NCBI GenBank assembly: GCA_945787655.1
Contig: CALZIJ010000016.1
Coordinates: 1 to 32,131, forward strand
Source: Nitrospiria bacterium
GTDB taxonomy: Bacteria; Nitrospirota; Nitrospiria; SBBL01; JAADHI01
Length of the DNA: 32,131 bases
Direction of reading: 5' to 3'
The notes under the pieces are model-generated. The model did not search any database. It saw only the letters and a list, made by a program, of their open reading frames with translations, and was not told the DNA's origin. Of the stretch, positions 3,776-32,131 are shown piece after piece. Position numbers and translations under genes: made by a program. Positions within the stretch are counted from its first letter, which is position 1. Every line of letters starts with the position of its first letter.

Positions 3776-5221
3776 TCAATCCTTCAACGCAATCTCTTCA
3801 ACCTTGCCCAAATCCGATAAGGGCTTGTCGAAAAGCGACTCGTCGCCCACGATCATCATGATCAAGCGGTCCGGGTGCAGGTATTTTTTCGCGACCCGCA
3901 GGATATCGGCCTTTGTCACTTTTTCAACATTGTCCCGGTATTGCTCCAGAAAATCTTCGGGCAAACCGTAATAATCCAGGGAAATCTGGCGCCCCACGAT
4001 TTGCGCGGGTGATGAAAAAGAAAAAATAAACGAATTCAGAAAAGCCTCCTTCGCGCGCGACAACTCTTCGTCGGTGACTTCCGCCTCACGGATTTTTCCA
4101 ATTTGATCAATCATGCTTGTGATCGCCTGTAAACTTTTTTCCGCCCGCGTCGCCCCGTAAGCCAGAAAAAACCCCCGCTCCAGCTTGCCCGGCTGAAACG
4201 CGCTGCCCACGGAATAGGCCAAACCCTGACGCGTCCGCACGTCCTGAAAAAGCCGGCTGTTTAATCCGCCGGAACCCAGAATATCATTCATGATGGAAAG
4301 CGCGAAAAAATCCGGGTTTTTCTGTTTAATACCAAGATGCCCGATACGGACCTGGGTTTGAGGAATGGCCTTGCTAATTTTATACACTGCCCCCGACATC
4401 CGCTCTTTCACCGGGGGAACGGCTGGAAAATCGATCTTTTTTTGCGCCCAGCCATTAAAGGCCTGTTCCAATATCGCGATCATTTCCTTTTTTTCAAAAT
4501 CGCCGGTCACCCCCAGGATGGTGTTGTTCGGGGCGAAATAGCGTTGATGATAGTCGAGCAAATCCGCCCTCGAAATCGCATTGATCGTGTCAACGGTGGT
4601 TTCGCGGGCATACGCGTTGTCTTCGCCATAAAGTTGTTTAAAAAATTCTCGTGTCGCAACCGAGGGCGGCCGGTCATTTCTACGCCGAATCGACTCCAGG
4701 GCCCGGTTTTTTGCAATATTAAGTTTCTCTTCCTCAAAGGCGGGAAAACGCAGGGTTTCGACAAAAAGCTTCAAACCCAGATCAAAATCTTTTTTAAGTA
4801 TATTCAGTGACGCACTGCCGGAATCCGTGCCAATACTCACCGACAAACGCGCGGCGATTTGATCCAGTATTTCATCCAGAGCCTCGCTCGAATGGCTGCG
4901 GTTTCCGCCGGAGCGCATGACGCTGCCCGTGATCCCCGCCAGGCCGATTTTATCCGCCGGTTCATAAATCGAGCCGGTGCGAATCATGGCCTGAAGTTGA
5001 ATGAGCGGCAGCTCGTGATCTTCAAGCAAGTACACTGTCATGCCGTTTGAAAGTGTGACTTTTTCCGCCATCGGCGGCTGAAACACGATGGGCGCGAAAG
5101 TCATTTTCCGGGGATCGATGGTTTCCGAAACTGCCGGAGCAGGAGTCAGTGAGAATCCAAGCCAGAAAACGGAGACGAAAAACGCGATACGGAATATGTG
5201 TTTGAACCGATTTGGATTCAC
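3776..5221 (-). CDS. M16-family peptidase-like protein, non-catalytic partner
   Basis: This 481-residue protein has a signal peptide or membrane anchor (about residues 9-31). It contains two M16-type halves. The first half has the usual LSNGMTVYLLEDHELPLIQLQAMIRTG opening in divided form, but GLAGITGSVM sits where the HxxEH zinc site should be, so this protein lacks the catalytic motif. The second half keeps the RLFQDVR...GLAYSV segment that carries the conserved Arg/Tyr pair of the substrate-binding partner. Pairs of one active and one inactive M16B subunit are known to form heterodimers. The start overlaps the stop of the upstream catalytic gene by four bases (ATGA), which supports translational coupling and a complex. 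It is probably periplasmic, possibly handling misfolded or small peptides; the substrate cannot be read from the sequence. Confidence 0.92.
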   Translation of the reverse strand: MNPNRFKHIFRIAFFVSVFWLGFSLTPAPAVSETIDPRKMTFAPIVFQPPMAEKVTLSNGMTVYLLEDHELPLIQLQAMIRTGSIYEPADKIGLAGITGSVMRSGGNRSHSSEALDEILDQIAARLSVSIGTDSGSASLNILKKDFDLGLKLFVETLRFPAFEEEKLNIAKNRALESIRRRNDRPPSVATREFFKQLYGEDNAYARETTVDTINAISRADLLDYHQRYFAPNNTILGVTGDFEKKEMIAILEQAFNGWAQKKIDFPAVPPVKERMSGAVYKISKAIPQTQVRIGHLGIKQKNPDFFALSIMNDILGSGGLNSRLFQDVRTRQGLAYSVGSAFQPGKLERGFFLAYGATRAEKSLQAITSMIDQIGKIREAEVTDEELSRAKEAFLNSFIFSFSSPAQIVGRQISLDYYGLPEDFLEQYRDNVEKVTKADILRVAKKYLHPDRLIMMIVGDESLFDKPLSDLGKVEEIALKD

Positions 5222-16535: not shown

Positions 16536-17543
16536 ATGGACTTTGCGTTAAAACGGTTAAAAACCCGAAAAAAAAATCCCTCGAAAGAGGGAAACCCAGG
16601 GGGACAGGCTTCCGTTGACAGCCCCGTGCGGGTCAGTAAAACAACCCTGATTGCGCTCAACCGTCAGGCCGAGCGGCTGTCCTTGAAAACCGCAAAAATT
16701 CATGCCCAGCAAGGCGGACAATACCTCTCCCCTTTTAAAGGCCGAGGAATGGAATTTGATGAAGTCCGTCCTTATCAACCGGGTGATGACGTCCGAACCA
16801 TTGATTGGAGAGTCACGGCCCGAAGCGGTCAACCGCATACCAAACTCTTCCGGGAAGAACGGGAACGGTCAGTCCTGTTTTGGGTCGATTATCGTGCCCC
16901 AATGTTTTTTGCCACGCGGGGACGGTATAAATCCGTCATGGCGGCCCAGGCGGCGGCCCTGCTTTCTTGGAGCGCGGTTCATCACGGTGACCTGCTGGGA
17001 GGACTCGTCTTTTCAGAAACACAACATCAGGAAATGCGGCCCCAGCGCGGGAAAAAAGGCGTGCTGCATTTCATACAGCACCTGGTGGACCATTCAGCCT
17101 GGGATTTGTCCGAAACGGGGAAGTCAATTGAAGCCCGGGGAGAAGCCGCAAGGCAGGCGTTTATTCGGCTTCGCCGTGTGACACACCCCGGCAGCCTTAT
17201 TTTTTTAATCAGCGATTTCAGAACATTGGGAGACAATGCCGAACAACATTTGGCACAGCTCGGACGGCATAATGATGTCGTTTTAATCTTCATCCACGAC
17301 CAGCTTGAAAAATCCCTGCCCCCGCCCGGACTGTACCGGATCAGCAATGGACTAAAAGAACTGTCACTCGACACCACCAGCCGCTCACTTCACGATCGTT
17401 ACCAATTTAAATTTCAGCAGCGCACCGAGTGGCTCAAAACACTTTGCCGGCGGTACGGGCTTTCTTATTTACCTTGTGACACCTCAGCAGATTTATTTTC
17501 AGTCTTACAACGCGGACTGGGCATAAGAAGGGAGAACCGGTGA
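16536..17543 (+). CDS. DUF58-domain protein of the Bat operon
   Basis: This 335-residue protein has the DUF58 core: GMEFDEVRPYQPGDDVRTIDWRVTAR split over about residues 70-95, followed by KLFREERERSVLFWVD. A VWA-like fold follows, with SLIFLISDF. The first 30 residues are basic. DUF58 proteins sit next to MoxR in most genomes and are thought to act with it, though their biochemical role is not known. No clear Shine-Dalgarno precedes the ATG. Its stop overlaps the next start. Confidence 0.93.
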   Translation: MDFALKRLKTRKKNPSKEGNPGGQASVDSPVRVSKTTLIALNRQAERLSLKTAKIHAQQGGQYLSPFKGRGMEFDEVRPYQPGDDVRTIDWRVTARSGQPHTKLFREERERSVLFWVDYRAPMFFATRGRYKSVMAAQAAALLSWSAVHHGDLLGGLVFSETQHQEMRPQRGKKGVLHFIQHLVDHSAWDLSETGKSIEARGEAARQAFIRLRRVTHPGSLIFLISDFRTLGDNAEQHLAQLGRHNDVVLIFIHDQLEKSLPPPGLYRISNGLKELSLDTTSRSLHDRYQFKFQQRTEWLKTLCRRYGLSYLPCDTSADLFSVLQRGLGIRRENR

Positions 17544-18043
17544 TGGATGGCGCAGAGTCCTTGCCGCTTCGGGATATTCACCTACCCAACCCCGTGTCCT
17601 GGTGGCCGCCTGCCCTCGGCTGGTGGATGCTCATTATTCTGTTGATCCTTGTTATTTTATCTATAAAAATCTTTCTTGTTATAAAACGCCGGCGCAGCGT
17701 ACAAATTGCGGCGATCAAAGCACTTAAACAAATTTCGGAAGCATTCAAAACAGACCAGGATGCCCATCGTCTGGTGAAATCCCTTTCAATCCTCATGCGC
17801 CGAATTTGTCTCAGTTATTTCCCGCGTAAAAAAGTCGCGGCGCTCACCGGTGAAAAATGGCTTCTTTTTTTGGACGAATGCCTGGATTGGGGCAACCTGA
17901 CAGACCGTTTCAGCCAAGGCAGCGGGCGCGCACTCATCACCGCACCTTATCAAAAACGGGCGGAGATCGATGGCGACCAACTCCTGTTTTTATGTGGGCA
18001 CTGGATAAAAGCGCTGCCATTGCTTAAAGAGAAAAAACAATGA
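17543..18043 (+). CDS. DUF4381-family membrane protein of the Bat operon
   Basis: I place the start at the ATG at 17543, which overlaps the DUF58 stop by one base (TGATG) and has GGGAG about eight bases upstream. A GTG one codon earlier is the alternative. The product is 166 residues: a short N-terminus with LRDIHLPNPVSWWPPALGWW, one membrane span (about 26-48), a basic KRRRS and a cytoplasmic helical domain with FPRKKVAALTGEKWLLFLDE. This layout is that of DUF4381 proteins found between DUF58 and BatA. Function is unknown beyond its link to the Bat cluster. Confidence 0.88.
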   Translation: MDGAESLPLRDIHLPNPVSWWPPALGWWMLIILLILVILSIKIFLVIKRRRSVQIAAIKALKQISEAFKTDQDAHRLVKSLSILMRRICLSYFPRKKVAALTGEKWLLFLDECLDWGNLTDRFSQGSGRALITAPYQKRAEIDGDQLLFLCGHWIKALPLLKEKKQ

Positions 18044-19062
18044 TTCATTTTGAATGGCCCTGGTTATTTCTGCTGCTTCCCTTACCCTGGCTCGTACGTC
18101 TTTTTTTTCCGGCGACCGGCTCGGCCCGGGACGCGGCCCTTCGTGTTCCTTTTTTTGAAGAATTTGAAGAAGCCAAAACCCGCACAAGCCAGATTAAAAT
18201 TAAACAAAAAAGCCTGTGGTTCGCCGTCATCGCCTGGTTGTTACTGGTTGTCGCCAGCACACGGCCGCAATGGCTGGGAGACCCCGTCTCCCTTCCGGTC
18301 ACCGGGAGAAACCTGATGCTCGCCGTCGATCTTTCCGGCAGTATGGAGGTGGAGGATTTTACACTGGCCGGTCATCAGGTGACCCGGCTTTATGCCACAC
18401 AGGCGGTCGCAGGCAAGTTTATCGAACGACGCGAAGGAGATCGGCTCGGACTGATTTTATTTGGAAAACAAGCTTACTTACAAACCCCCTTAACCTTTGA
18501 CCGGGAAACCGTGCAGACTCTGTTACACGAAGCCGTCATTGGACTTGCCGGTCAGGAAACGGCCATTGGTGATGCCATTGGGCTTGCGGTCAAACGGCTC
18601 AGGGAAAATGATGCCGGTGAACGCGTACTCATTCTACTGACCGACGGGGCCAACACCGCCGGAGAAGTTGAGCCGATTAAAGCAGCGGAACTCGCAGCAG
18701 CGGAAGGCCTGAAAATCTATACGATCGGTATTGGCGCCGATGAAATGACCGTGCGTTCCTTGTTTGGATCAAGAAAGGTCAATCCTTCCGCCGACCTGGA
18801 TGAAGCCACGCTCACAGCCATTGCAGAAAAAACCGGCGGCCGATATTTTCGGGCGAAAAACACGGAGGAATTTGAGGAAATCTATCAACTATTGGATCAG
18901 CTTGAACCCGTCGAGCAAGAAAAACAACGGTTTCGGCCGGCAAGCGCACTTTATCCCTGGCCCTTGGGCGGCGCAATGTTGATTGCCGCTTTATTGATAC
19001 TGAACCGGAGTTTGACGGGGATTCAAATTCTCTCTCACGCCCCTTCAATAAAACAGGAATAG
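18040..19062 (+). CDS. batA: BatA-like VWA-domain membrane protein
   Basis: This 340-residue protein overlaps DUF4381 by four bases (ATGA). It has an N-terminal span (about 6-24), a second span (about 58-75), a VWA domain with MIDAS DLSGS at residues 97-101 and a later LTDGANTAGEV, and a final span near the C-terminus (LGGAMLIAALLIL). The VWA domain probably faces the periplasm and binds a metal and a protein partner. In Bat clusters, BatA works with BatB and BatD at the inner membrane. Bat genes have been linked to aerotolerance and stress survival, but their mechanism is not established. Confidence 0.93.
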   Translation: MIHFEWPWLFLLLPLPWLVRLFFPATGSARDAALRVPFFEEFEEAKTRTSQIKIKQKSLWFAVIAWLLLVVASTRPQWLGDPVSLPVTGRNLMLAVDLSGSMEVEDFTLAGHQVTRLYATQAVAGKFIERREGDRLGLILFGKQAYLQTPLTFDRETVQTLLHEAVIGLAGQETAIGDAIGLAVKRLRENDAGERVLILLTDGANTAGEVEPIKAAELAAAEGLKIYTIGIGADEMTVRSLFGSRKVNPSADLDEATLTAIAEKTGGRYFRAKNTEEFEEIYQLLDQLEPVEQEKQRFRPASALYPWPLGGAMLIAALLILNRSLTGIQILSHAPSIKQE

Positions 19063-19149
19063 CTTAAAGAAAGACCCAATACAAATGCAGGTACTTATCA
19101 ATCGTAATATTTTGATGTCCACCGACTTTTAAAATCAACAGGAGCACAT

Positions 19150-20970
19150 TTGGATTTCCAAAGTTTAAAGGACTTTCATTTTTTAAGGCCGGAATGGCTG
19201 TGGCTGATGCCCTTACTCGGTCTTCTGCTGTGGCTGTTTTATCGAAGAAAAGCCGTGAGCAAAAGCTGGCAGGCCGTATGCGATCCCGATTTGCTTCCGC
19301 ATCTACTCGTTGAACAATCAAAAGCAAAAAAAACACAGGATGCCGTTTATATATTATCGTTTGGCGGGCTGCTCGCTTTAATGGCCCTGGCTGGCCCCGT
19401 TTGGGAAAAACTGGAGCAACCCGTTTTTCGTGAGCAATCGGCATTGGTTCTTGTTCTGGATCTTTCCCGGTCAATGGATGCCGCAGATTTGAAGCCCACC
19501 CGCCTGGCGCGGGCACGGCACAAATTGATCGACATCCTTAAAAAGAGAAAAGAAGGGCAAACTGCGCTGATCGTGTATGCGGCAGAACCGTTTGTCGTCA
19601 GCCCGCTCACTCAGGACTCGGAAACCATTATTGCCCAGGTTTCAGCCTTAAAAACCGCATTAATGCCCAAACAGGGCAGCCGTTCAGATCTGGCTTTGGA
19701 GAAAGCCGAAGACTTGCTAAAACAGGCCAGCGTTTCCCAAGGCCGCATCCTCATCATCACCGACGGCATTGAAAACACACCATCGGAAGCACTCGAAACC
19801 GTCATCGCACGCTTGACCCTGAATGGACATCAAACTTCAGTATTGGGCGTAGGGACAGTGCAGGGGGCTCCCATTCCTCTGACCGACGGGGGTTTTGTAA
19901 AGAACCGGGCCGGTGAAATTGTCATTCCAAAGCTGGACATACTCAAGCTGCGTATGCTGGCCCTTCAGGGAGAAGGGAGATATCAGACCATACGGGTCGA
20001 TGAGTCGGATATCACGGCGCTTCTCTCTGAACGCCCATTGAAACGATTAAACAATCAAACAGAAGAAGTCGGCTTGAAGGCGGACCTTTGGCGGGAAGAA
20101 GGCCCCTGGCTGTTAATCCCGCTGCTTTTCCTCAGCGCATTGGCATTTCGCCGAGGCATTATCGCCGTCGTTTTTTTGGCAGCCGCACTGTCCTTCCCCG
20201 GTCTGGCGCTGGCCTTGAACTGGCAAGGGCTTTGGACCCGGCCCGATCAACAGGCCGCGAAACTGTTTTCACAGGGTGAAGAAGAAAAAGCCGCATCGGT
20301 TTTTCAAAACCCGGAATGGAAAGCCGCAGCCCATTACCGCGCCGGGCAATTTGAAGAAAGCCTCCGGGCTCTGGAAGGGCTCGATTCGCCGGATGCGCTT
20401 TATAACAAAGGCAATGCCCTGGCCAAACTGGACCGAATACCCGAGGCCATCCAAGCCTATGACGAAGCGCTGAAAATGGATCCGAAACACGCAGATGCAC
20501 GCCATAATCTGGAACTACTGAAAGCGCTTCAGGAAGAAGAGCAACCCCCTGAACAAAACAATTCGGAAGAAGGTGACCCCGCACAGGATGAACAAGACGA
20601 CCCTTCGGAAGAAAGCCAGGAAAATGCTGAGGGGGAACCCGGACAAACGGGGGAGCAAACCCCTTCGGACAATCCACAAGAAGACGGAAACAAGGGCCAG
20701 AAAAATGAAGACTCAGCGCCCCAATCCGCAGAAAAGCAGCCGGATCAAACAGAACAAAACGAACAGGCCCAACAACAAAAGGCAGATCAAGAAGGCGATC
20801 ACAAGCCCGAGCCAAGCGAAGGGGAATTGACGGAGCCGGATGAAATTCAGCTGGCCAACGAGCAATGGCTTCGACGCATCCCCGATGATCCCGGTGGTCT
20901 GCTTCGCCGAAAATTTTTATACCAGTCCCGACAACATCAAGTGGGACGAAATGAGGAGAATGCATGGTGA
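19150..20970 (+). CDS. batB: BatB-BatC fusion: VWA-domain and TPR protein
   Basis: The start is TTG, with AGGAG six bases upstream. The 606-residue protein has two N-terminal spans (about 17-31, 65-82), a VWA domain with MIDAS DLSRS at residues 104-108 and ITDGIENT, a second hydrophobic block (about 318-354), and a TPR unit (ALYNKGNALAKLDRIPEAIQ region, about 395-440). A tail of over 100 residues follows, very rich in Glu, Gln, Asp and Pro, then a short basic end. In many genomes BatB (VWA) and BatC (TPR) are separate genes, so this is a fusion of the two. An 87-base gap before it breaks the otherwise tight operon. BatD starts inside its last codons. Confidence 0.92.
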   Translation: MDFQSLKDFHFLRPEWLWLMPLLGLLLWLFYRRKAVSKSWQAVCDPDLLPHLLVEQSKAKKTQDAVYILSFGGLLALMALAGPVWEKLEQPVFREQSALVLVLDLSRSMDAADLKPTRLARARHKLIDILKKRKEGQTALIVYAAEPFVVSPLTQDSETIIAQVSALKTALMPKQGSRSDLALEKAEDLLKQASVSQGRILIITDGIENTPSEALETVIARLTLNGHQTSVLGVGTVQGAPIPLTDGGFVKNRAGEIVIPKLDILKLRMLALQGEGRYQTIRVDESDITALLSERPLKRLNNQTEEVGLKADLWREEGPWLLIPLLFLSALAFRRGIIAVVFLAAALSFPGLALALNWQGLWTRPDQQAAKLFSQGEEEKAASVFQNPEWKAAAHYRAGQFEESLRALEGLDSPDALYNKGNALAKLDRIPEAIQAYDEALKMDPKHADARHNLELLKALQEEEQPPEQNNSEEGDPAQDEQDDPSEESQENAEGEPGQTGEQTPSDNPQEDGNKGQKNEDSAPQSAEKQPDQTEQNEQAQQQKADQEGDHKPEPSEGELTEPDEIQLANEQWLRRIPDDPGGLLRRKFLYQSRQHQVGRNEENAW

Positions 20971-22688
20971 TCTTTATGCAGCGGCTCAGTATGGCAGTGC
21001 TTTGCATGGCCTTCACACTAACCGCTTTGTCTGAAGTCCGGGCCGCCACAATTCAGGCTGAACTGGACCGGGACCGAGTCTCCCTCCAGGAATCCTTTAC
21101 ACTCGTTTTTGAAGCCGAAGGCACGCTTGACGGCGAGCCTGATTTTAGCCCGATTGAACAACACTTTGACATTGTCCATAAAATGGAAGGCAGCCGGATG
21201 GAAATCATCAATGGGCAGATTTCCCAAAAAAAAGAATGGACCCTCACCCTCATGGGGAAAGAAGCCGGATTCTTTACCATACCGTCGATTTCATTCGGGA
21301 AAGACCAAAGCCCTGCTCTCCGTATCGATATCGAGAAAAAAATCCGGTCTGCAAAAAAAGAAGAACCGGAACTTTTAATGCTTGAAGTCACCGGGACCCC
21401 TGAATCGGGATACGTTCAGTCTCAATTTATTTATACCATTCGCTTTTACCGGTCCATTAACCTGTTAAGCGCACAAATTTCAGAACCTGAAATCAGCGGC
21501 ATCGACGCGGTCATCGAAAAACTCGGTGAAGACCGCCAATTTGAAATGCGGCGTGACGGAGAACGGTATCGTGTTATCGAGCGGAAATATGCAATCTTCC
21601 CTCAACAGAGCGGACAATTGACTATTTCTCCTATCACCTTTGCCGGCCAGCTTGCAGGCAGAGCGCGTTCGCAATTTAACCCCTTTCCCGGTGGAGGACC
21701 GATTAAACGGTTACGTTCCGAACCGCTTACACTGCAAGTCAATCCGGTTCCTCAAGATAAAATCAAGGGACAGTGGCTGCCGGCCCGCAATCTGTTGCTG
21801 ATGGAAAGCTGGACGGAAATGGAAAATGATGCTCTTACGGGTCAAGTGGGTGAACCTTTGACCTGGACCCTGCGCGTCGAGGCCGAAGGCTTGACCGCAG
21901 CACAAATCCCGGAAATCAACCCGGACATCCCCAAAGCCTTTAAAGCCTATCCGGATCAAGCGACCCTAAGAAATGAAACAACACCAGACGGACTGACCGG
22001 CATTCGCGAAGAAAAAATCGCACTCATTCCCACTGTGCCCGGAACCCTGGTCTTACCAAAAGTGGACGTTCCCTGGTGGAACACCCGGACGGGACAAATG
22101 GAAGTGGCCCAATTGCCTGCCCGTCAAATACAGGTTTCCCCGGCAGAGATCCCTTTGCAACCCGTTCTGCCGGCACCCGTGCCGGAAACGGCACTTCGAC
22201 AAAAAGCGCCTGCAAATCCGGCCCCTGCTCCCAGTGCGAAAACCACTCCGGGGTTCTGGCCCTGGGTGAGCCTTGCCCTGACCGTGGCCTGGGTCATGAC
22301 CCTGATGGGCTGGTGGCAGGCACATCGGAAGGCAAAACAAATACAAGCCTATTCCAAAGGCCCTGGAGAATCCTTGCCTGACTTCGGCCCGGTAAAAAGA
22401 CAACTGAAAAGAGCCTGCACCCAAAATGATACGGCGGCCGCCAAAGATGCCCTGCTTTCCTGGGGAAAACTCAAGTGGCCGGGACGGCCCCTTAGCCTGG
22501 GAGAGATTCAAAATCGGGTCGGACCAAGCCTGTCCAGCGAAATCAGAACACTCAATGCGGTATTATACAGTCAGTCTAAGACGTCCTGGGAAACGGGGAA
22601 TTTACTCTGGGCCGCTTTTGAAAAAGAAAAGAAGACGCAAAAAAAAGCCTCATCCAAACCTGAGGCTTTGGTGCCGCTCTATCCTTAA
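20964..22688 (+). CDS. batD: BatD-like oxygen-tolerance protein
   Basis: This 574-residue protein has a signal peptide (about residues 5-28, ending VRA), then Ig-like beta-rich repeats starting with LDRDRVSLQESFTLVFEAEG and including SPIEQHFDIVHKMEGSRMEI, typical of BatD. One C-terminal membrane span (WPWVSLALTVAWVMTLMGW, about 430-450) and a cytoplasmic helical tail follow. It overlaps the BatB-C gene by seven bases. A second Met at codon 5 is a possible start. BatD is thought to present its large periplasmic part to the VWA partners. A terminator-like hairpin lies in the last codons (separate entry). Confidence 0.92.
   Translation: MVIFMQRLSMAVLCMAFTLTALSEVRAATIQAELDRDRVSLQESFTLVFEAEGTLDGEPDFSPIEQHFDIVHKMEGSRMEIINGQISQKKEWTLTLMGKEAGFFTIPSISFGKDQSPALRIDIEKKIRSAKKEEPELLMLEVTGTPESGYVQSQFIYTIRFYRSINLLSAQISEPEISGIDAVIEKLGEDRQFEMRRDGERYRVIERKYAIFPQQSGQLTISPITFAGQLAGRARSQFNPFPGGGPIKRLRSEPLTLQVNPVPQDKIKGQWLPARNLLLMESWTEMENDALTGQVGEPLTWTLRVEAEGLTAAQIPEINPDIPKAFKAYPDQATLRNETTPDGLTGIREEKIALIPTVPGTLVLPKVDVPWWNTRTGQMEVAQLPARQIQVSPAEIPLQPVLPAPVPETALRQKAPANPAPAPSAKTTPGFWPWVSLALTVAWVMTLMGWWQAHRKAKQIQAYSKGPGESLPDFGPVKRQLKRACTQNDTAAAKDALLSWGKLKWPGRPLSLGEIQNRVGPSLSSEIRTLNAVLYSQSKTSWETGNLLWAAFEKEKKTQKKASSKPEALVPLYP
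22639..22669 (-). terminator. Intrinsic-terminator-like hairpin on the minus strand inside the end of batD
   Basis: On the minus strand AAAGCCTCA, an eight-base loop and TGAGGCTTT form a perfect nine-pair stem that runs into eight T in all. On the plus strand only three T follow, so sense termination would be weak. It would stop transcription coming from the right, antisense to the Bat operon. Confidence 0.45.
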
Positions 22689-22739
22689 TCAAACGCTAAA
22701 CCTTATCAACGCCAACCCGTAGAAGATCGAGAGGGAATC

Positions 22740-23501
22740 ATGTCAGAGCAGTATCATCGGCTTGCAATCGTCACGGGAGCCACATCAGGGATCGGGGAAG
22801 CCACGGTTAGAAAATTTATTTCCGCCGGTATCGGAGTGGTCGGCAATGGCCGTAACCATGAAAAACTGTCTGCCCTCGAAAAAGAGTTGGGTTCTGCGTT
22901 TCATGGCGTGTCAGGGGACGCAGCCGATCCGTCTACCCTGGACAAACTCTTTCTCTCGGTGAATCAACATTTTGGACAGTCGGCTGATATTGTCGTCGCC
23001 AATGCCGGGCAGGGCCTGGGCGGATCAGTTAAAGAGGCTGACCTGGAAAAATTTGAACACATCCTCAAGATTAATGTCACAGGAACACTCGCACTGCTTC
23101 AAAAAGGAGCAAAACAAATGATAAAGGATCGGTCAGCCCCCTACCCAGAATCGCCTGCCGATATCGTGGTCGTGGGATCGATTGTCGGGCGGCATATCTC
23201 CCCGTTCAGCGGCGTTTACGGCGCCACAAAATTTGCAGTCCATGCACTGGCGGAAGCCTTGCGCCGTGAGCTGGCTGGTGAAGGCGTCCGAGTTTCCCTA
23301 GTTGAGCCGGGATTTGTGCTAAGTGGATTTCAAGCCGGTGCAGGATACAGCGATCAACAGGTGGAGCAGTTCAAAAATAAATTTGGCCCGCTTTTGGAGG
23401 GGGAAGATATTGCTAATGCCATTCACTTCATCGTCACACAGCCTCCCTCAGTGCATATCAGTGACATTGTCGTTCGACCCACCCGGCAGGACTACCCATG
23501 A
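22740..23501 (+). CDS. SDR-family NAD(P)-dependent oxidoreductase
   Basis: This 253-residue protein has the classical SDR set: TGATSGIGEA (about 12-21), NGRN for cofactor choice, VVANAGQG, the catalytic Ser in VVGSIVG, and YGATKFAVHALAEALRREL with Tyr and Lys, followed by VEPGFVLSGF. The Asn-Gly-Arg after the second strand is compatible with NADP(H). The substrate cannot be told; it resembles serine/3-hydroxy acid dehydrogenase-like SDRs. GAGAGG precedes the start. It lies 51 bases after batD on the same strand, so it may be read from the Bat promoter. Confidence 0.92.
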   Translation: MSEQYHRLAIVTGATSGIGEATVRKFISAGIGVVGNGRNHEKLSALEKELGSAFHGVSGDAADPSTLDKLFLSVNQHFGQSADIVVANAGQGLGGSVKEADLEKFEHILKINVTGTLALLQKGAKQMIKDRSAPYPESPADIVVVGSIVGRHISPFSGVYGATKFAVHALAEALRRELAGEGVRVSLVEPGFVLSGFQAGAGYSDQQVEQFKNKFGPLLEGEDIANAIHFIVTQPPSVHISDIVVRPTRQDYP

Positions 23502-23670: not shown

Positions 23671-24138
23671 ATGAAAACCCCAAAACAATGTGTTTATATT
23701 GTATTATTATTGCTTTTATTTTCAGGCTTTACTGCGCCGTCATTCGCCGCTCCCTCAAGTCATCCCGCTTCATTAGAGGAAGTTAAAAAAGAGACGCAGG
23801 ATGTATTGGATGCCCTTAAAAATTATACAGCGGACCAGCGTGACGAAGCCCTTCAAAAAACAAGAAAGGCCTTGGACAAGCTCGATAAACGCATTAAAAT
23901 TCTGGAAACCCAGGTCGGCGTGGACAGAGCGCAATTGAGTGAAACCGCCCGTAAAAAAACAGATGCGGCACTGAAAGAACTGCACAAGCAACGGCGTGAA
24001 GTGGCTGAATGGTCAAGACGCTTGAAAAACAGCTCGACAGACGCTTGGGATCAAATGAAAAAAGGGTTTACAGAAGCCTATCGCGCTTTTCATCATTCCT
24101 GGGAAAAAACTGAAAAAGAATTTTCGGAGCACCAATAA
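23671..24138 (+). CDS. Small secreted coiled-coil protein of unknown function
   Basis: The frame is open from 23605, but the ATG at 23671 has GAGGAG upstream and begins a clear signal peptide (MKTPKQCVYIVLLLLLFSGF, cleavage near SFA|AP). The product is 155 residues. The mature part is almost wholly helical and charged, with heptad-like KKETQDVLDALKNY, ALDKLDKRIKILETQ and ELHKQRREVAEWSRRL. It has no Cys and no enzyme motif. It is probably a periplasmic helical bundle. It faces the OmpA-family gene tail to tail. Confidence 0.82.
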   Translation: MKTPKQCVYIVLLLLLFSGFTAPSFAAPSSHPASLEEVKKETQDVLDALKNYTADQRDEALQKTRKALDKLDKRIKILETQVGVDRAQLSETARKKTDAALKELHKQRREVAEWSRRLKNSSTDAWDQMKKGFTEAYRAFHHSWEKTEKEFSEHQ

Positions 24139-24143
24139 TCCGC

Positions 24144-24183
24144 CGTTCTGAAGACCCGTAACGGGATCGGGGCAGAACGCCCC
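24144..24183. other. Overlapping hairpins between convergent genes
   Basis: Three inverted repeats overlap here: CGTTCTG with CAGAACG (24144-24150, 24173-24179), an inner CCCG-TAA-CGGG (24055 offset within, at 24155-24165), and an alternative GGGGC-AGAAC-GCCCC (24169-24183). The outer and alternative stems compete. No T-run follows on either strand. Placement between two stop codons suggests a transcript-end or mRNA-protecting structure. Confidence 0.4.
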
Positions 24184-24207
24184 CACCCCGTCATTTCACT
24201 TCACGGC

Positions 24208-25812
24208 TTACTCTGCTTTTAATGTCACCACGACACGACGGTTTTTCTCCCGGCCTTCGGGAGTATCGTTATCCGCGATCGGTCTGGACGCCCCATAACC
24301 TTTCGCCGTAAGCCGGGAAGGGTCAATCCCAAAACGGCTGATAAGATATTGCCGGACACTGTCGGCCCGCCTTTGTGAAAGCGTGCGGTTAACATGCTCC
24401 GGCCCGGTATTATCTGTATGCCCTTCCACTTCTGTGGTGGTGTTCGGAAACGCCTTCATGAAATCCGAAATTTTCCTTATTTCCGCATCATACTCCGGCT
24501 TCACCCGTGCCTTGCCCGTATCAAAGCGAATATTCAGATTAACGGTGGTTTGATCCGTGACCACCATACAGCCTCGATGATCAACCGTCGCACCTTCGAG
24601 TGAATCAGGACACTGGTCAAGGGCATCGGATACCCCATCGGCATCACGGTCTTTTTCAGGGGCATCAGGACAACCCATTGCATCCACAGTCACCCCTTCA
24701 GGCGTGCCAGGACAGTCGTCAATTTCATCATAAATCCCGTCCCGGTCATCATCCAATGGGCAGCCTTTTTCATTGACATGAATGCCAACAGGCGTATCGG
24801 CGCAGCGATCCCGGCTATCGGAGACCCCATCCCGGTCCGTATCCAAAGTACAGCCCTTGCCATCGGTAAGCAGCCCTCTCGGCGTATCCTGACATTCATC
24901 CACATGATCAGGGACGCCGTCACTATCGCTGTCCATCGGGCAGCCTTCTCCATCTACTTTGACCCCTGAAGGCGTTCCGGGACAAAAATCCTGACCATCG
25001 CTCACACCGTCCCCATCCACATCATCCACCGCAGATTCAACTTTTACAGAACAGCCTTTAGCGTCAACTTTGTCCCCCGCGGGTGAATCCGGACAACGGT
25101 CCAGGTCATCCCTGACACCATCCCCATCGCGATCCAAGGGCATTGCACAACCCGACTGATCGACAATCGTACCGGCAACAGAATTCGGGCATTGATCGAG
25201 AGAATCCCCGATCCCGTCTCCGTCACTGTCCTGTGGTAATACACTCACCGCTTCAACAGGTTCTGCTTGTTTCTTCGCTTGGCTTCCCCAGGCATAAACA
25301 AGCCCGACAGCCAGTTCCATATTATGCTGCGTCTGATGATCATCCACAAAAATAAACCGGAAATCCCCCCGGAGCCCAATGCGGTCCGATAGATGATATT
25401 GCGCCCCAAATCCATAGTTTGCCATAAAATTGGTGTCAGCCCCTCTCGGATTTGAATCCAGCGACAAACCGCCAAAGCCCACGGCCAAAAAAGGCACCAG
25501 CCGCTTGTCGGGCCTAAAATAATACAAGGCATCCATATGATAGAGCACCCCATGAATCGTACTGTCATTGTCCCCCAAAAAACTGGATTCAGTGGGAACA
25601 TATTCCAAGACCCCCTCAAGCCCAAAATGTGAGGTCAATGCATAACCCAAACGCAGACCCATCACTGGGCTGACATCCAGTTTTTGCTGATGATCAAATT
25701 CATAACGGCCGATGAACGGGCTCACCGAATAACGCTCCGGGCTGATTTGCGCCTGACTTTCAGCGGAAAGGATCAGGATAAAAACAAAAACGAACGCAAC
25801 AATGCTTTTCAA
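24208..25812 (-). CDS. OmpA-family outer-membrane protein with seven thrombospondin type 3 repeats
   Basis: The frame is open to 25929, but a TTG at 25810-25812 has GGAGG eight bases upstream and begins the signal peptide (LKSIVAFVFVFILILSAESQAQ), giving 534 residues. Domains in order: an N-terminal OmpA-like beta barrel (about 25-190, ending VGLVYAWGS), seven TSP3-type calcium-binding repeats of the form DxDxDGVxDxxDxCPxTPxG...DxxGC (about 205-420), then an OmpA C-terminal peptidoglycan-binding domain with NIRFDTGKARVKPEY, EVEGHTDNTG and LSQRRADSVRQYL. It links the outer membrane to peptidoglycan; the Asp-rich repeats probably form a rigid calcium-binding stalk. Confidence 0.94.
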   Translation of the reverse strand: MKSIVAFVFVFILILSAESQAQISPERYSVSPFIGRYEFDHQQKLDVSPVMGLRLGYALTSHFGLEGVLEYVPTESSFLGDNDSTIHGVLYHMDALYYFRPDKRLVPFLAVGFGGLSLDSNPRGADTNFMANYGFGAQYHLSDRIGLRGDFRFIFVDDHQTQHNMELAVGLVYAWGSQAKKQAEPVEAVSVLPQDSDGDGIGDSLDQCPNSVAGTIVDQSGCAMPLDRDGDGVRDDLDRCPDSPAGDKVDAKGCSVKVESAVDDVDGDGVSDGQDFCPGTPSGVKVDGEGCPMDSDSDGVPDHVDECQDTPRGLLTDGKGCTLDTDRDGVSDSRDRCADTPVGIHVNEKGCPLDDDRDGIYDEIDDCPGTPEGVTVDAMGCPDAPEKDRDADGVSDALDQCPDSLEGATVDHRGCMVVTDQTTVNLNIRFDTGKARVKPEYDAEIRKISDFMKAFPNTTTEVEGHTDNTGPEHVNRTLSQRRADSVRQYLISRFGIDPSRLTAKGYGASRPIADNDTPEGREKNRRVVVTLKAE

Positions 25813-26342
25813 TACTTTATCCTCCAAAAAACGAACAGCGATATGACTGCCGGGGTGAGAACAAGCGCCCGAAAGAATCAAGATGATCCATTCATACCGG
25901 AGTTTCTTCTGTAATAAACAGGGTAGCACCTGCTATTCAGGTTAAAGGGAGAATATTCCTAAAGTCAATATAATAATGTTTATTAACAACACGTTTACGC
26001 AAGCTGAGCGAGGGATATAAATTCCAATGTTTATAAATCTTTTTTGCTGATTGCATCCGAAAAAATCCACTCAAAAAGAAAGACACACTCCATTTCTTAG
26101 AATGACTTTGACTTTTTCTTTTCCTCGTGGCATAAAGATGTCTATCGAAAACCTGTCCCAAATCCATAACCCTTACCGGAATGGCAGTATCTGTTTCTGT
26201 ATGAACCTCATCACTTTTCTCGACCGCATTTTTCAGACCTCGCGATGAAAGCACGCTCAAACACACATCCGCCAACCGCCAGATTAAAGAACGCAGGATT
26301 TGAGTGCGGGATTCAAAAAACCAGAGAAAAAACACATTGCCT
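25813..26342. other. Gene-poor stretch of about 530 bases
   Basis: The left part holds the leader and possible promoter of the OmpA-family gene. The rest is AT-rich. The frames open in it (137 codons on minus, 65 on plus) lack a convincing Shine-Dalgarno, domain or normal composition, so I do not call a gene. A plus-strand TTGACT (26108-26113), 17 bases, CATAAA (26131-26136) could be a promoter for the methyltransferase remnant. It might be a decayed gene or a dispersed repeat; nothing in the window repeats it. Confidence 0.5.
25941..25968 (-). promoter_or_regulatory. Candidate promoter for the OmpA-family gene
   Basis: On the minus strand TTGACT (25963-25968), a 16-base spacer and TTTAAC (25941-25946) give a good -35 and a moderate -10. 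The leader to the TTG start would be about 120 bases. Confidence 0.35.
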
Positions 26343-26780
26343 ATGAACATTACGCAACAACAGGTTGAAGCCGGACAGGCGGTTTATACGAAACGTACGC
26401 TCGCAATATATGATCTTCTCGTGCTGGGCCTTTCAAACCGGCTGATTTGGAAATGCCCCACGCCGCAACTTATCACACACTATAATCAAAACGTGTCGGG
26501 AAACCACCTTGATGTCGGTGTCGGCACAGGGTACTTTCTGGATCACTGCCGTTTTCCTTCAGACACACCGCGTGTCGCTTTAATGGACCTGAACCCCGAT
26601 ACCCTGGAATTTGCCTCCCGGCGAGTGGCAAGATACCTTCCTGAAATCTACCCGCAAAATATTTTAGAACCCATCTCATTCGATGGAAACGGTTTCGATT
26701 CTGTGCAGCGCGGTTTTCCGGCCGAAAATGATCCCTCAGCCTCCCGCGCGCTTTACCGTCCAACCTTCTTTTTTGAGTAG
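26343..26780 (+). pseudogene. Class I SAM-dependent methyltransferase, truncated at its 3' end
   Basis: From the ATG at 26343 the protein reads MNITQQQVEAGQAVYTKRTL and then the SAM-binding motif I HLDVGVGTGYFLDHC and the acidic post-I strand VALMDLNPDTLEFA. Recognisable similarity stops after ISFDGNGFDSV (about base 26703), where family members go on into the central strand and the C-terminal half. The remaining 25 codons are unrelated and run into the 3' end of yciH on the other strand. The product would be about 145 residues, against about 200-220 usual for this group. It keeps SAM-site residues but lacks the rest of the fold, so it is most likely inactive. The cause may be a deletion or an assembly join. 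Confidence 0.8.
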
Positions 26781-27104
26781 TTCAATCAGTGTGTCTCGAT
26801 GATCACCCTGAATTTCGATCACCCCGTCTTTCACCGTACCCCCTGTGCCGCAATGGGTTTTAAGCCGCTTTCCCAAGGCCTTTAAATCTTCTACGGAGAG
26901 CGGAACCCCCTTAATCACGCACACGCCCTTTCCTTTTCGTCCTTTCGTTTCCCGCCAAACACGCACGACACCGTCACTCGACGGAGGCGCTTGCAATTTT
27001 TTGCAAATACACTGAGCGGAAAGATGACTGCAGACGGGACACATTTTCCCGAATTCGGTCGAATAAACGAGACCGCTGTTTTTATCGTGTTTTCCTGGTT
27101 TCAT
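26736..27104 (-). CDS. yciH: YciH/SUI1-family translation-factor-like protein
   Basis: The frame is open to 27407, but an ATG at 27102-27104 has GGAG five bases upstream and starts the conserved region (MKPGKHDKNSGLVYSTEFGK), giving 122 residues. The C-terminal half has the SUI1/eIF1 fold signature: GRKGKGVCVIKGV, THCGTGGTVKDGVIEIQGDHR and LLKKEGWTVK. The N-terminal half adds Cys22, Cys25, Cys32 and Cys34 (CPVC...CIC), a likely zinc knuckle that E. coli YciH lacks. Bacterial eIF1 homologues are thought to influence start-site fidelity under stress. Its 3' end overlaps the broken methyltransferase frame by 45 bases. Confidence 0.92.
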   Translation of the reverse strand: MKPGKHDKNSGLVYSTEFGKMCPVCSHLSAQCICKKLQAPPSSDGVVRVWRETKGRKGKGVCVIKGVPLSVEDLKALGKRLKTHCGTGGTVKDGVIEIQGDHRDTLIELLKKEGWTVKRAGG

Positions 27105-27255
27105 CGGTACTCCATCCATATTGACAGAAAACGAGCCAAAGCCGACCGGATCATCATACGATAAACCCGGCGGGCCTTTCCATGCTTCCCGAAAAACAAA
27201 AACTTTTAAAGCAACATGAATTCCCCTAAAATGGCGGCGCATAGGAGAATGACAG

Positions 27256-28866
27256 ATGATCCGCCTGACAGAAATCAAACTTCCACTGGAACATACGGAA
27301 GAAGACCTGATCGCGGTCGTCCTCAAAAAGCTCAAGATTCCGACAGATGCGCTCATCAATTGTACGGTTTTCAAGCGCAGTGTGGACGCCCGTAAAAAAA
27401 CCCGCATCCATTTGATTTACACGCTGGATCTCGAAACCCTCGATGAGGCGCGCCTGCTTCGCGCGAACCAACACGACCCGCATATTCGGCCCACGCCCGA
27501 CACAGCCTATCATTTCGTCGCGGAAGCACCCGCAGGTTTTAAGAAACGGCCCATTGTGATCGGCACCGGCCCTTGTGGTATATTCGCCGCCCTGTTGCTC
27601 GCGCAAATGGGCTTTCGCCCCATTGTCCTGGAACGCGGCAAGGCCGTTCGGGAGCGCACGGTGGATACCTTTTGTTTTTGGCGCAAACGCGTACTGGATC
27701 CGGAATCCAATGTGCAATTCGGCGAGGGCGGAGCCGGGACGTTTTCGGACGGAAAACTCTACAGCCAAATCAAAGACCCCGGACACCGCGCCCGAAAAGT
27801 CATGACGGAATTCGTCAAGGCTGGCGCGCCGACTGAAATACTGTATGTCAACAAACCGCACATCGGCACATTAAAACTGGTCGGCATCGTGGAAAAGATC
27901 CGCGCAGAAATTACCGCCCTCGGCGGTGAAATCCGTTTTCAAAAACGCGTTAAAATGCTCGACATCGACAAAGGCGCCGTTCAGGGCGTGACCCTCGCGG
28001 ATGGAGAGCAGATTCGGGGCGAACACGTGATTCTGGCCGTCGGGCACAGCGCGCGGGATACCTTCCAAATGCTTTTAACGCAAGGGGTTTATATCGAAGC
28101 CAAGCCCTTTTCCATCGGTCTTCGCATCGAACATCCGCAATCACTCATCGACCGCTGCCGCTTCGGCCCGCATGCGGGACATCCCGTGCTCGGCGCGGCG
28201 GATTACAAACTCGTGCACCACTGCAAAAACGGCCGCTCGGTCTACAGTTTTTGCATGTGTCCGGGCGGCACAGTCGTCGCGGCGGCATCAGAGCCGGGCG
28301 GAGTTGTGACCAACGGCATGAGCCAATACTCACGCCACGAACGCAATGCCAACAGCGGCATCGTCGTGGGCGTCACACCGGCAGACTATCCCGAAGGCCC
28401 ATTGGCGGGCATCGATTTTCAACGGCGCTGGGAACAACAGGCCTTTGATCTGGGCGGCCGGACTTATGATGCACCCGGCCAGCGTGTGGGAGATTTTCTC
28501 AAGAATCGCCCCACACCGGCTTTCGGAACCGTGCTGCCGTCCTATACGCCCGGCGTCATTCCGGGCGATTTAAGTGAAAGCCTGCCCGGTTACGCCATCG
28601 CGGCCATCCGGGAAGCGCTGCCCGTCTTCAATCAAAAAATCGAGGGGTTTGCGATGGACGATGCCCTGCTCACGGCGGTGGAAACCCGCACGTCCTCGCC
28701 AATCCGTATTAAACGAACAGTAGATTTCCAAAGCGTGAATACAGAAGGTTTATATCCCGCAGGGGAAGGCGCGGGTTATGCAGGCGGAATTCTTTCCGCC
28801 GCCGTGGACGGCATTAAAGCCGCCGAAGCGGTCGCGCTCAGCATGTTAAATGCAAATCAACCTTAA
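27256..28866 (+). CDS. FAD-dependent oxidoreductase, COG2509-like
   Basis: This 536-residue protein has AGGAGA seven bases before its ATG. An N-terminal domain of about 90 residues comes first, then a dinucleotide-binding motif VIGTGPCGIFAALLLAQMG (about 100-118), ERGKAVRERT, GEGGAGTFSDGKLYSQIKD and a C-terminal FAD motif YPAGEGAGYAGGILSAAVDG. The set fits the uncharacterised FAD-dependent dehydrogenase family (COG2509). Its FGEGGAGTFSDGKL and CMCPGG stretches are family hallmarks. Substrate is unknown. It faces SbcC; the two stop codons share TTAA. Confidence 0.93.
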   Translation: MIRLTEIKLPLEHTEEDLIAVVLKKLKIPTDALINCTVFKRSVDARKKTRIHLIYTLDLETLDEARLLRANQHDPHIRPTPDTAYHFVAEAPAGFKKRPIVIGTGPCGIFAALLLAQMGFRPIVLERGKAVRERTVDTFCFWRKRVLDPESNVQFGEGGAGTFSDGKLYSQIKDPGHRARKVMTEFVKAGAPTEILYVNKPHIGTLKLVGIVEKIRAEITALGGEIRFQKRVKMLDIDKGAVQGVTLADGEQIRGEHVILAVGHSARDTFQMLLTQGVYIEAKPFSIGLRIEHPQSLIDRCRFGPHAGHPVLGAADYKLVHHCKNGRSVYSFCMCPGGTVVAAASEPGGVVTNGMSQYSRHERNANSGIVVGVTPADYPEGPLAGIDFQRRWEQQAFDLGGRTYDAPGQRVGDFLKNRPTPAFGTVLPSYTPGVIPGDLSESLPGYAIAAIREALPVFNQKIEGFAMDDALLTAVETRTSSPIRIKRTVDFQSVNTEGLYPAGEGAGYAGGILSAAVDGIKAAEAVALSMLNANQP

Positions 28867-31800
28867 GGAACCACACATTCGATGCGGCTGCCGGTCCGGC
28901 CTGAAACCAGTTCAATACGGGTATTGATCCGTTCTTTGAGTTCCGGCACATGGGAGATCATGCCGATCATCCGTCCCCCCGACTGCAATTCCATCAAGGT
29001 ATCAATTGCGACATCCAGGGCCTCCGGGTCGAGGCTGCCAAAACCTTCATCGATAAATAATGTATCGAGACGAATCCCTCCGGCATAGGCCTGCACTACG
29101 TCCGATAAACCCAGCGCGAGAGAAAGCGCGGCAATAAAACTCTCACCCCCGGAAAGCGTGGATGCTGGCCGGACTTTTCCCGTAAATGCGTCTTCCACTT
29201 CCAAATCCAGACCGGCCTTGCTTCGGCGATCAGAAACAGCCTCGCAACGCCGAAGCTGATACCGTCCCCGGCTCATCTTGGCCAGACGCTGGCCTGCCTC
29301 AATTAACACATCATCCATTAACACACTCAGCACAAACCGATGCAGGCTGAGATTATAGTTATTTTTCCCGTTGGCGATCTCACTCAATTTTCCGACAATC
29401 CCATAAGATGCCTCAAGCGTTTTTTCTTTTTGAGCATGATTCTGCAATTTTTTCTGAAGGGCTGCAAGCTGGGTCTGACGATGCTCCACCGCATGAAATC
29501 CCTTTGTCGCAGCTTCTTTTTCCTTTTCGGCGCTTTGGTACATGGCCCTCAGCTTCTCCATATCCGGCCGACACAAGTTTTCAATGGCCTTCTTTTTTTC
29601 TGTCATTTCTTTTTCGGCCAGCCGTTGTTGGTCCTGATGTTCCCGTACAGTTTTTTCCAGCACTTCAAGTTCATCTTTCGGGCAGCGTGCGTCCAAAAAA
29701 GAGGACAATGATTCAAAACTGCTTTTTTTAAGACGAGTGGTCCAAGCGGCTTGGGCCACCTCATCGTGCGTGTTTGCCTCGGAAAAAGAACGGTCCGCCG
29801 CCGTTTTTGCGGCTTCTGCGGCAGATTTGTTTTCTCTGGCCTGCTGATGTGCTTGCTCGGCGGCCCGAACCCACTGTATCAGTTCATCCCGACCTTTAAC
29901 ACACCGGGCGATTGCTTTCTCCAGGTTGCCCGCGCCACGATAGGCTTCGGGCAGCTCGGCTTCCTTGTTTTTAAAATCCACGGATGCCGCCGTGAAATCA
30001 CTTTTGCAAAGACTCAAGTCTTGCTGTTTTTTTTCAAATTCAATCTGGAGTGACTGTGCTTTTTGTTGAAGTTGTTCCAGCGCCGCCTGCCATTTCGGAT
30101 ATTCAGAAGCTTTCTCAGTCAAGACAGTGATTTCTTGTTGAAGGGATTGAAGCTTTGTTTTACATGCCGCAACAGTGAGTTCTTTTTCCTCATCCTCAGT
30201 GCTTTGGAGTGCCTCCCGTTTGGCTGTTTCGACCTTTAATTCATTTTCGTAAGCCCCGAGTTTTTCACGAAATACATCCCGGACCTTCTGGCACTCCTCT
30301 TCCCGGAGACGGGCGGATGCCAGCTCTTCTTTTGATGGAACCTCAAACCTTTCGGGAAACGGCTTTCGATGCTCCCGGCTGCCACAAACCAGACAAGGCT
30401 CGCCCTCTTTCAGTTCCTGCGCCAGCAAGGCCGCCTGACCCTGCTGCCAGGACGCTTCACATTTTTTCCTCAGACAGACGGCTTCTTTATATTCAGTTTC
30501 CTTGTCCTGAAAAGCCGTTGTTCCTTTTGTTATATTTTTATGAAGTTCAAGTAAACGGCTGTCCTGCTGAATCCGGATCTGCATGTTTTTGAGCTGCTCT
30601 GAACATTTTTCAAAGGCAATGCGTTTTAAGGGGAGTTCACGAACGGCGGCCTCCAGATCCTTGATCTCCAGCTCCAGCTGCTCTCTTTGTTTCTTAAGGT
30701 CCACCATTTCTTTTTCCGATTGCCGGGCTTCAATTTCGGACTTTTTTAACCGGCTTTTGGCCTGAATCAAGCACTTTTCCGCGTCAAGCCATTGCCGATG
30801 CCGCGACTGATACCCCTCTAAAACAACGAACTCCTGCTTCAGTTTTTCGAGTCGTTGTTTTTTTTCGGTCATTTTTTGTTCGCCTGCGGCGGCCGTTTTT
30901 AACTGTTCAAGGGCTTTCTCAAATGCTTTCTGTTGAAATAAAACGGACTTCCGGGCCTTTTCCCATTCCGCCTTCCGCTGCAAACTCGCCTCGTAAACGG
31001 GCGCCAGTTCGCGGGCAGACCGGGCGTTTTGAAGCCGGAGAGCCTGCTCATCAACAAGGCCTTTCTTTCCTTGCAAAGCGGATAATATTTTTTGCGCTGC
31101 GTCAAAGTCTTGAAACTGCTTTTCCAGGGCCGTCGCCTGCTGAAGCTGCACCTGTTGATGATTAAACTGACGTTCCGCCGCCGCTTGAATCTGTTTCGCC
31201 TCAGTCATCTCTGCTGCGACAACAGCGCATTCTTTTTTTAACGCATCGATGGATTCAAGCCCTGCGGCTTCAAGTATTCCAGCCTGTTTTTGTTTCAAGT
31301 CCCGGACCTCGTTCTTCAGTGCATTGGCCTTGTCTCTTAATTGTTCTTCAAGCCGCGTGTAGACATGGGTTTGAAAGAGCTGGCGGAAGATGGCCTCGCG
31401 GTTTTGCGAATCCGCCAGTAAAAGTTCACGGAATTTTCCTTGCGGCAGCACCATGACCTGCCGAAATTGCGCCACACTTAAACCCGTCAGTCCCGTGATT
31501 TTTTCATTGGCTTCGGTGATTTTCCGTGGAACGAGCAGATCCTCCCTACCATCCGTACCCAGCCGCCACAATTGCGCCTCCGCAGATTGCGCCGTCGTGC
31601 CCTCGCCCCGCGCCTTGGGGCGCTCCTGATCAGGAATTCGGCGGATTTTATAGCGTTCTCCCGCCAGATTAAACACCAGAATGACTTCAGTTATTTGCCC
31701 CGGATCGGCATGATCACAGCGCATTTCCTTGCCGGAGCGCTCCGCCCCCGTGGTTTCGCCGTAGAGTGCAAAACAGATCGCATCCAGTATCGTGGTTTTT

Positions 31801-32131
31801 CCGGCCCCGGTCGGACCGTTGATCAGAAAAAGCGGGTGCTCTCCCAGCGAATCGAAATGAATGGTTTCCGTCTTCAGAATTTGATGTGTTTCATGTCCTT
31901 TTCCGGCGAGAATCACCACATCCCTTTTTCTGGATTTTTTTATAATATATTCGATTGCTTTTTTTCTGTCTTGAATCAGGACATAGTCTTGGAAATTAGG
32001 ATCTACGCCCTTCAGGATTTCGTGCATAATGCCCTGGCTGTCTTCCGAGCGCGGATTGTCATCGGTAATCACCAACAGGTCGGCGAAATCGCCGGCAATC
32101 TTGCCCATTTTAGGTCGCTTGCCGCGATCTC
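28863..32131 (-). CDS. sbcC: SbcC exonuclease subunit with N-terminus replaced by MurE C-terminus (chimeric frame, open at right edge)
   Basis: From about base 31853 leftward the frame is a full SbcC: LFLINGPTGAGKTTILDAI (Walker A), long coiled coils, zinc hook CLVC near 30383-30394, LSGGES signature near 29140-29158 and LFIDEGFGSLD (Walker B) near 29030-29062. SbcC with SbcD cuts hairpins and DNA ends. Family members have about 30 residues before Walker A (typically an FGPF stretch then ETIDFD). Here that part is missing and the frame instead continues upstream as MurE C-terminus through ETIHFD. No start codon of normal SbcC is present. The last domain is intact. SbcD is not in the window. 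The chimera would lack the first strands of the ATPase lobe and is doubtful as an enzyme. See the MurE entry. Confidence 0.85.
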   Translation of the reverse strand, partial: DRGKRPKMGKIAGDFADLLVITDDNPRSEDSQGIMHEILKGVDPNFQDYVLIQDRKKAIEYIIKKSRKRDVVILAGKGHETHQILKTETIHFDSLGEHPLFLINGPTGAGKTTILDAICFALYGETTGAERSGKEMRCDHADPGQITEVILVFNLAGERYKIRRIPDQERPKARGEGTTAQSAEAQLWRLGTDGREDLLVPRKITEANEKITGLTGLSVAQFRQVMVLPQGKFRELLLADSQNREAIFRQLFQTHVYTRLEEQLRDKANALKNEVRDLKQKQAGILEAAGLESIDALKKECAVVAAEMTEAKQIQAAAERQFNHQQVQLQQATALEKQFQDFDAAQKILSALQGKKGLVDEQALRLQNARSARELAPVYEASLQRKAEWEKARKSVLFQQKAFEKALEQLKTAAAGEQKMTEKKQRLEKLKQEFVVLEGYQSRHRQWLDAEKCLIQAKSRLKKSEIEARQSEKEMVDLKKQREQLELEIKDLEAAVRELPLKRIAFEKCSEQLKNMQIRIQQDSRLLELHKNITKGTTAFQDKETEYKEAVCLRKKCEASWQQGQAALLAQELKEGEPCLVCGSREHRKPFPERFEVPSKEELASARLREEECQKVRDVFREKLGAYENELKVETAKREALQSTEDEEKELTVAACKTKLQSLQQEITVLTEKASEYPKWQAALEQLQQKAQSLQIEFEKKQQDLSLCKSDFTAASVDFKNKEAELPEAYRGAGNLEKAIARCVKGRDELIQWVRAAEQAHQQARENKSAAEAAKTAADRSFSEANTHDEVAQAAWTTRLKKSSFESLSSFLDARCPKDELEVLEKTVREHQDQQRLAEKEMTEKKKAIENLCRPDMEKLRAMYQSAEKEKEAATKGFHAVEHRQTQLAALQKKLQNHAQKEKTLEASYGIVGKLSEIANGKNNYNLSLHRFVLSVLMDDVLIEAGQRLAKMSRGRYQLRRCEAVSDRRSKAGLDLEVEDAFTGKVRPASTLSGGESFIAALSLALGLSDVVQAYAGGIRLDTLFIDEGFGSLDPEALDVAIDTLMELQSGGRMIGMISHVPELKERINTRIELVSGRTGSRIECVVP
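31851..32131 (-). pseudogene. murE: MurE C-terminal fragment fused in frame to sbcC
   Basis: On the minus strand the last 280 bases read DRGKRPKMGKIAGDFADLLV, then ITDDNPRSED and DVVILAGKGHETHQIL. These are the C-terminal ligase-domain motifs of MurE, which adds the third amino acid to the peptidoglycan peptide. DNPR is the motif tied to meso-diaminopimelate. MurE normally ends about 10-20 residues after HETYQI, with IHFDDRE-like sequence; here IHFD passes straight into SLGEHPLF of SbcC. The upstream part of murE lies off the right edge. Confidence 0.85.

Follow-up and report, generated by a model that had tools for sequence, protein, structure and literature searches.

An open MurE–SbcC reading frame at a contig end of a Nitrospiria bin is probably an assembly chimera

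Short-read metagenome assembly can produce chimeric contigs (PMC8172020), whose joins lack evident biological support. A join of this kind may lie near the end of the stretch of DNA analysed here (the window, 32,131 nucleotides), where sequence of MurE, the UDP-MurNAc-tripeptide synthetase (TIGR01085), passes into sequence of SbcC (TIGR00618/NF041751). The window is the entire contig C16 of a bin of 168 contigs and 3.04 Mb (98.3% complete), and base 32131 is the contig end. The join resembles those of the described chimeric contigs in that it lies at a contig end and on a short word that either of two genomes could plausibly contain; unlike those, it is probable rather than proven, being judged from sequence comparison. 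Literature searches for a MurE–SbcC fusion and for chimeric contigs with short repeats returned nothing relevant. As set out below, we assign a probability of roughly 0.88 to the reading that the join is an assembly chimera at the contig end, in frame but artificial.

In the assembled sequence, a single uninterrupted open frame of 1,088 codons runs from 32129 to 28863 on the minus strand; the first-pass annotation had the coordinates right and left the strand unstated. Residues 1-93 of the frame match murE (TIGR01085 positions 371-462 of 472, E 2.6e-33); the SbcC match (TIGR00618, NF041751) extends over residues 86-1076. The two profile matches overlap at ETIHFD and bear out the earlier claim that MurE lies upstream of SbcC in one frame. 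About 86 codons of the MurE C-terminus (32129–31872) thereby lead in frame into SbcC (31868–28863). Since base 32131 is the contig end, the MurE sequence amounts to a terminal stub of ~260 bp (31872..32129, minus strand; assigned by TIGR01085) that runs off the contig. It has the C-terminal DNPR and GKGHE motifs of MurE, and it differs from full MurE in the absence of positions 1-370 and of the last ~10. The SbcC part is nearly full-length and has the Walker A motif, coiled coils and Walker B motif of known SbcC proteins. In contrast to these, its first ~17 residues are replaced by MurE sequence, and sbcD is not adjacent to it in the assembly.

A genome of the same genus (G003) carries an ordinary sbcD–sbcC pair within a 118-kb contig, in which sbcC starts MRPVILTLSAFGPFPRRETIHFDTLGQHPLFLINGPTGAGKTT, directly behind sbcD. 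Compared with this gene, the sbcC of the window has 77.7% DNA identity, and the similarity begins exactly at 31868, at GAAACCATTCA, the codons for ETIH; the two proteins are 86% identical over the N-terminal 223 aligned residues. The sbcC of the window (28863..31868, minus strand; NCBIfam and Pfam matches and DNA identity to G003) is collinear with G003:C61 4754-7767, and the blocks 28855–31868, 26736–28850, 24165–25826, 23762–24131 and 17049–23501 of the window are ordered as on that contig. Because the window follows the gene order of G003:C61 from 31868, the SbcC part is native, with only its first ~17 codons missing. The corresponding ~17 N-terminal residues of the G003 protein are absent from the window, in agreement with the proposal that the fusion removes the start of SbcC. 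A close SbcC (86%) was found in only one of four genomes of the genus (G001-G004), the rest giving no or a weak match, and sbcDC of the type in this bin looks patchy in the lineage.

The native sbcD of the bin is located on contig C141 (3582 bp), where it runs off base 1 toward sbcC, and its product is 84% identical to SbcD of G003. C141 is collinear with the G003 contig down to 4643 and C16 resumes at 4754, leaving a gap of 110 bp in G003. A DNA query across the sbcD–sbcC link returned nothing within the bin beyond the two contig ends, apart from a weak match on C34 attributed to chance. A search for the 5' end of sbcC next to sbcD had been suggested earlier; what it revealed is sbcD at the edge of C141, exactly opposite the break, which is where a chimera would leave the native neighbour of the joined gene. 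In the simplest reading of these alignments, C141 and C16 would be neighbours and the murE tail would sit where the end of sbcD belongs. In the true genome, sbcD and sbcC most likely form a normal pair.

The joint itself is a word of 18–21 bp, GACGGAAACCATTCATTTCGA (T-ETIHFD; 31852..31872, minus strand), which is plausible in both parents and, with up to 3 mismatches allowed, has a single occurrence in the bin. ETIHFD is present at the joint position in SbcC of G003, and the MurE proteins of relatives often end in EKIHFDDR or TEKLHFDDR, so that the junction residues fit both families, as had been noted before; this fit is judged from residues of relatives and not from the true parental sequences. 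A small-k de Bruijn step depends on a word of this length that each parent could contain. Once the strand agrees, an in-frame join arises by chance in about 1 of 3 cases, a point counted against a misjoin, and it would be unsurprising if both genes carry the shared word in frame.

With MurE proteins of the genus and family, the murE tail shares 39–48% identity. Its best identity is 56%, taken over the matches listed from a pattern-seeded search of ~85,000 species together with 396 genomes from the phylum, and a donor was found neither among those matches nor in those genomes. The bin has its own murE in a dcw cluster on contig C112 (mraZ, mraW, an ftsI-type gene, murE, murF, mraY, murD, ftsW, murG; named by position and sequence, murE also by NCBIfam), and the product of this murE is 72% identical to MurE of G003. 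Judged by these identities (39-48% versus 72% for the native MurE), the joined piece appears to derive from a different genome. In codon usage the tail is ordinary for the window (at the 66th percentile), and in GC content it is lowish (5th percentile); as signs of foreign origin, these two measures were considered and are not decisive. No complete murE frame, as expected of a fusion gene, lies upstream, the contig ending inside murE, and the search of the bin (98% complete) yielded no 5' part of a second murE. Of the other Mur-family matches in the bin, those examined proved to be murF, murD and two murC, none of them the 5' part of the foreign murE; weaker matches on C4 and C68, which were not typed, lie in frames of their own (499 and 453 codons). 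Among the Mur-family matches of the bin there is no foreign murD or murF.

The native murE (L025, G000:C112 4543-6029) is interrupted in frame by a TGA after codon 448 and lacks the GKGHE segment through in-frame losses; it may be a pseudogene or an assembly fault. According to the first-pass annotation, a true fusion would need a second intact murE. A distinct native murE does exist, and as assembled it is broken rather than intact. If the defect is real, another murE would be needed, and a real event therefore keeps some probability.

A second foreign tail was found on contig C67, where the native sequence ends 57 bp upstream of purA (product 85% identical to PurA of G003). Beyond this joint are a foreign murB and a foreign murC, 36% and 42% identical to the native genes, respectively, and the joint cuts an ftsQ-like frame (first ~60 codons; ftsQ by position and sequence). 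These foreign genes and the cut frame make up L167 (G000:C67 10113-12405), and the native murC, murB and the genes after them are on C84. The foreign murC is closest to that of genome G316 (55%), a genome that likewise ranks among the better matches of the murE tail. The tails of C16 and C67 may have one co-occurring organism as their source. The idea that one inserted foreign dcw cluster joins the two contigs was rejected on gene order and orientation: outward on C67 the cluster would run through murG to murE, and on C16 the gene after murE is sbcC, not murF. Random misjoining does not predict that both foreign tails should derive from dcw clusters, a coincidence to be read with the fact that foreign tails were searched for with Mur ligases only.

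By frame lengths and a motif scan, a MurE–SbcC fusion was found in none of 57 other genomes, the source bin being the only one among 58, and in the scan of the fetched loci MurE and SbcC motifs occurred in one frame only in the window's own copies. The murE frames of relatives are of ordinary length except in G032 (1041 codons; G032:C16 7658-7960) and G023 (783 codons; G023:C9 14848-15144). These two long frames are possibly fusions of the MurE-MurF type, not of SbcC.

Two origins had been proposed for the join, a real short-homology deletion and a k-mer misjoin. The misjoin is favoured over a deletion within one genome because sbcD faces the break, the native murE on C112 is distinct and the tail is foreign to the genus. 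Coverage or the graph connection would probably have failed over the ~110 bp that lead from the end of sbcD into the start of sbcC, and the assembler would then have extended the sbcC contig via a short word common to murE of another organism, run ~260 bp into this foreign murE and stopped. The k-mer step and the co-occurring donor are what we infer, and in the assembly graph two paths would be expected to enter a node around GAAACCATTCATTTCGAT. The native-to-foreign dcw switch on C67, which likewise cuts a frame, counts for a misjoin, and the unremarkable composition of the tail, the broken native murE and the failure of the searches to find a donor count against it. The broken native murE leaves some room for real recombination, in which the lineage gained a foreign murE that became linked to sbcC via the short word and took over from the decayed native gene. 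The in-frame TGA and lost GKGHE segment on C112 and the foreign murC-murB on the native contig C67 are consistent with this, and an insertion would also explain the break between C141 and C16. However, the foreign murE would have lost its last residues and sbcC its start, neither a 5' part of that murE nor a foreign murD or murF is found in the 98% complete bin, and the order and orientation of the two tails misfit one inserted cluster, which makes such an event unlikely.

Even less likely is that the function of the native murE was lost and that short-homology recombination placed a foreign murE in front of sbcC, making an essential ligase and a DNA-repair ATPase one chain. An established fusion gene with a working bifunctional product is scarcely credible: the open frame and the intact SbcC Walker A, MurE DNPR and MurE GKGHE motifs would suit it, but the fusion is absent from the 57 other genomes and from the relevant literature retrieved, SbcC of the same genus is normal in G003, and the first ~17 SbcC residues and the last MurE residues are gone.

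In summary, the MurE–SbcC fusion is very probably not a real feature of this organism. A misjoin that stays in frame by chance mimics a convincing fusion of an essential gene, and protein databases would come to list the artefact as a MurE–SbcC protein of more than 1000 residues. The bin is flagged by at least one more foreign contig tail, that on C67. The join is of little biological interest, and its value lies in the warning that it gives about the bin.
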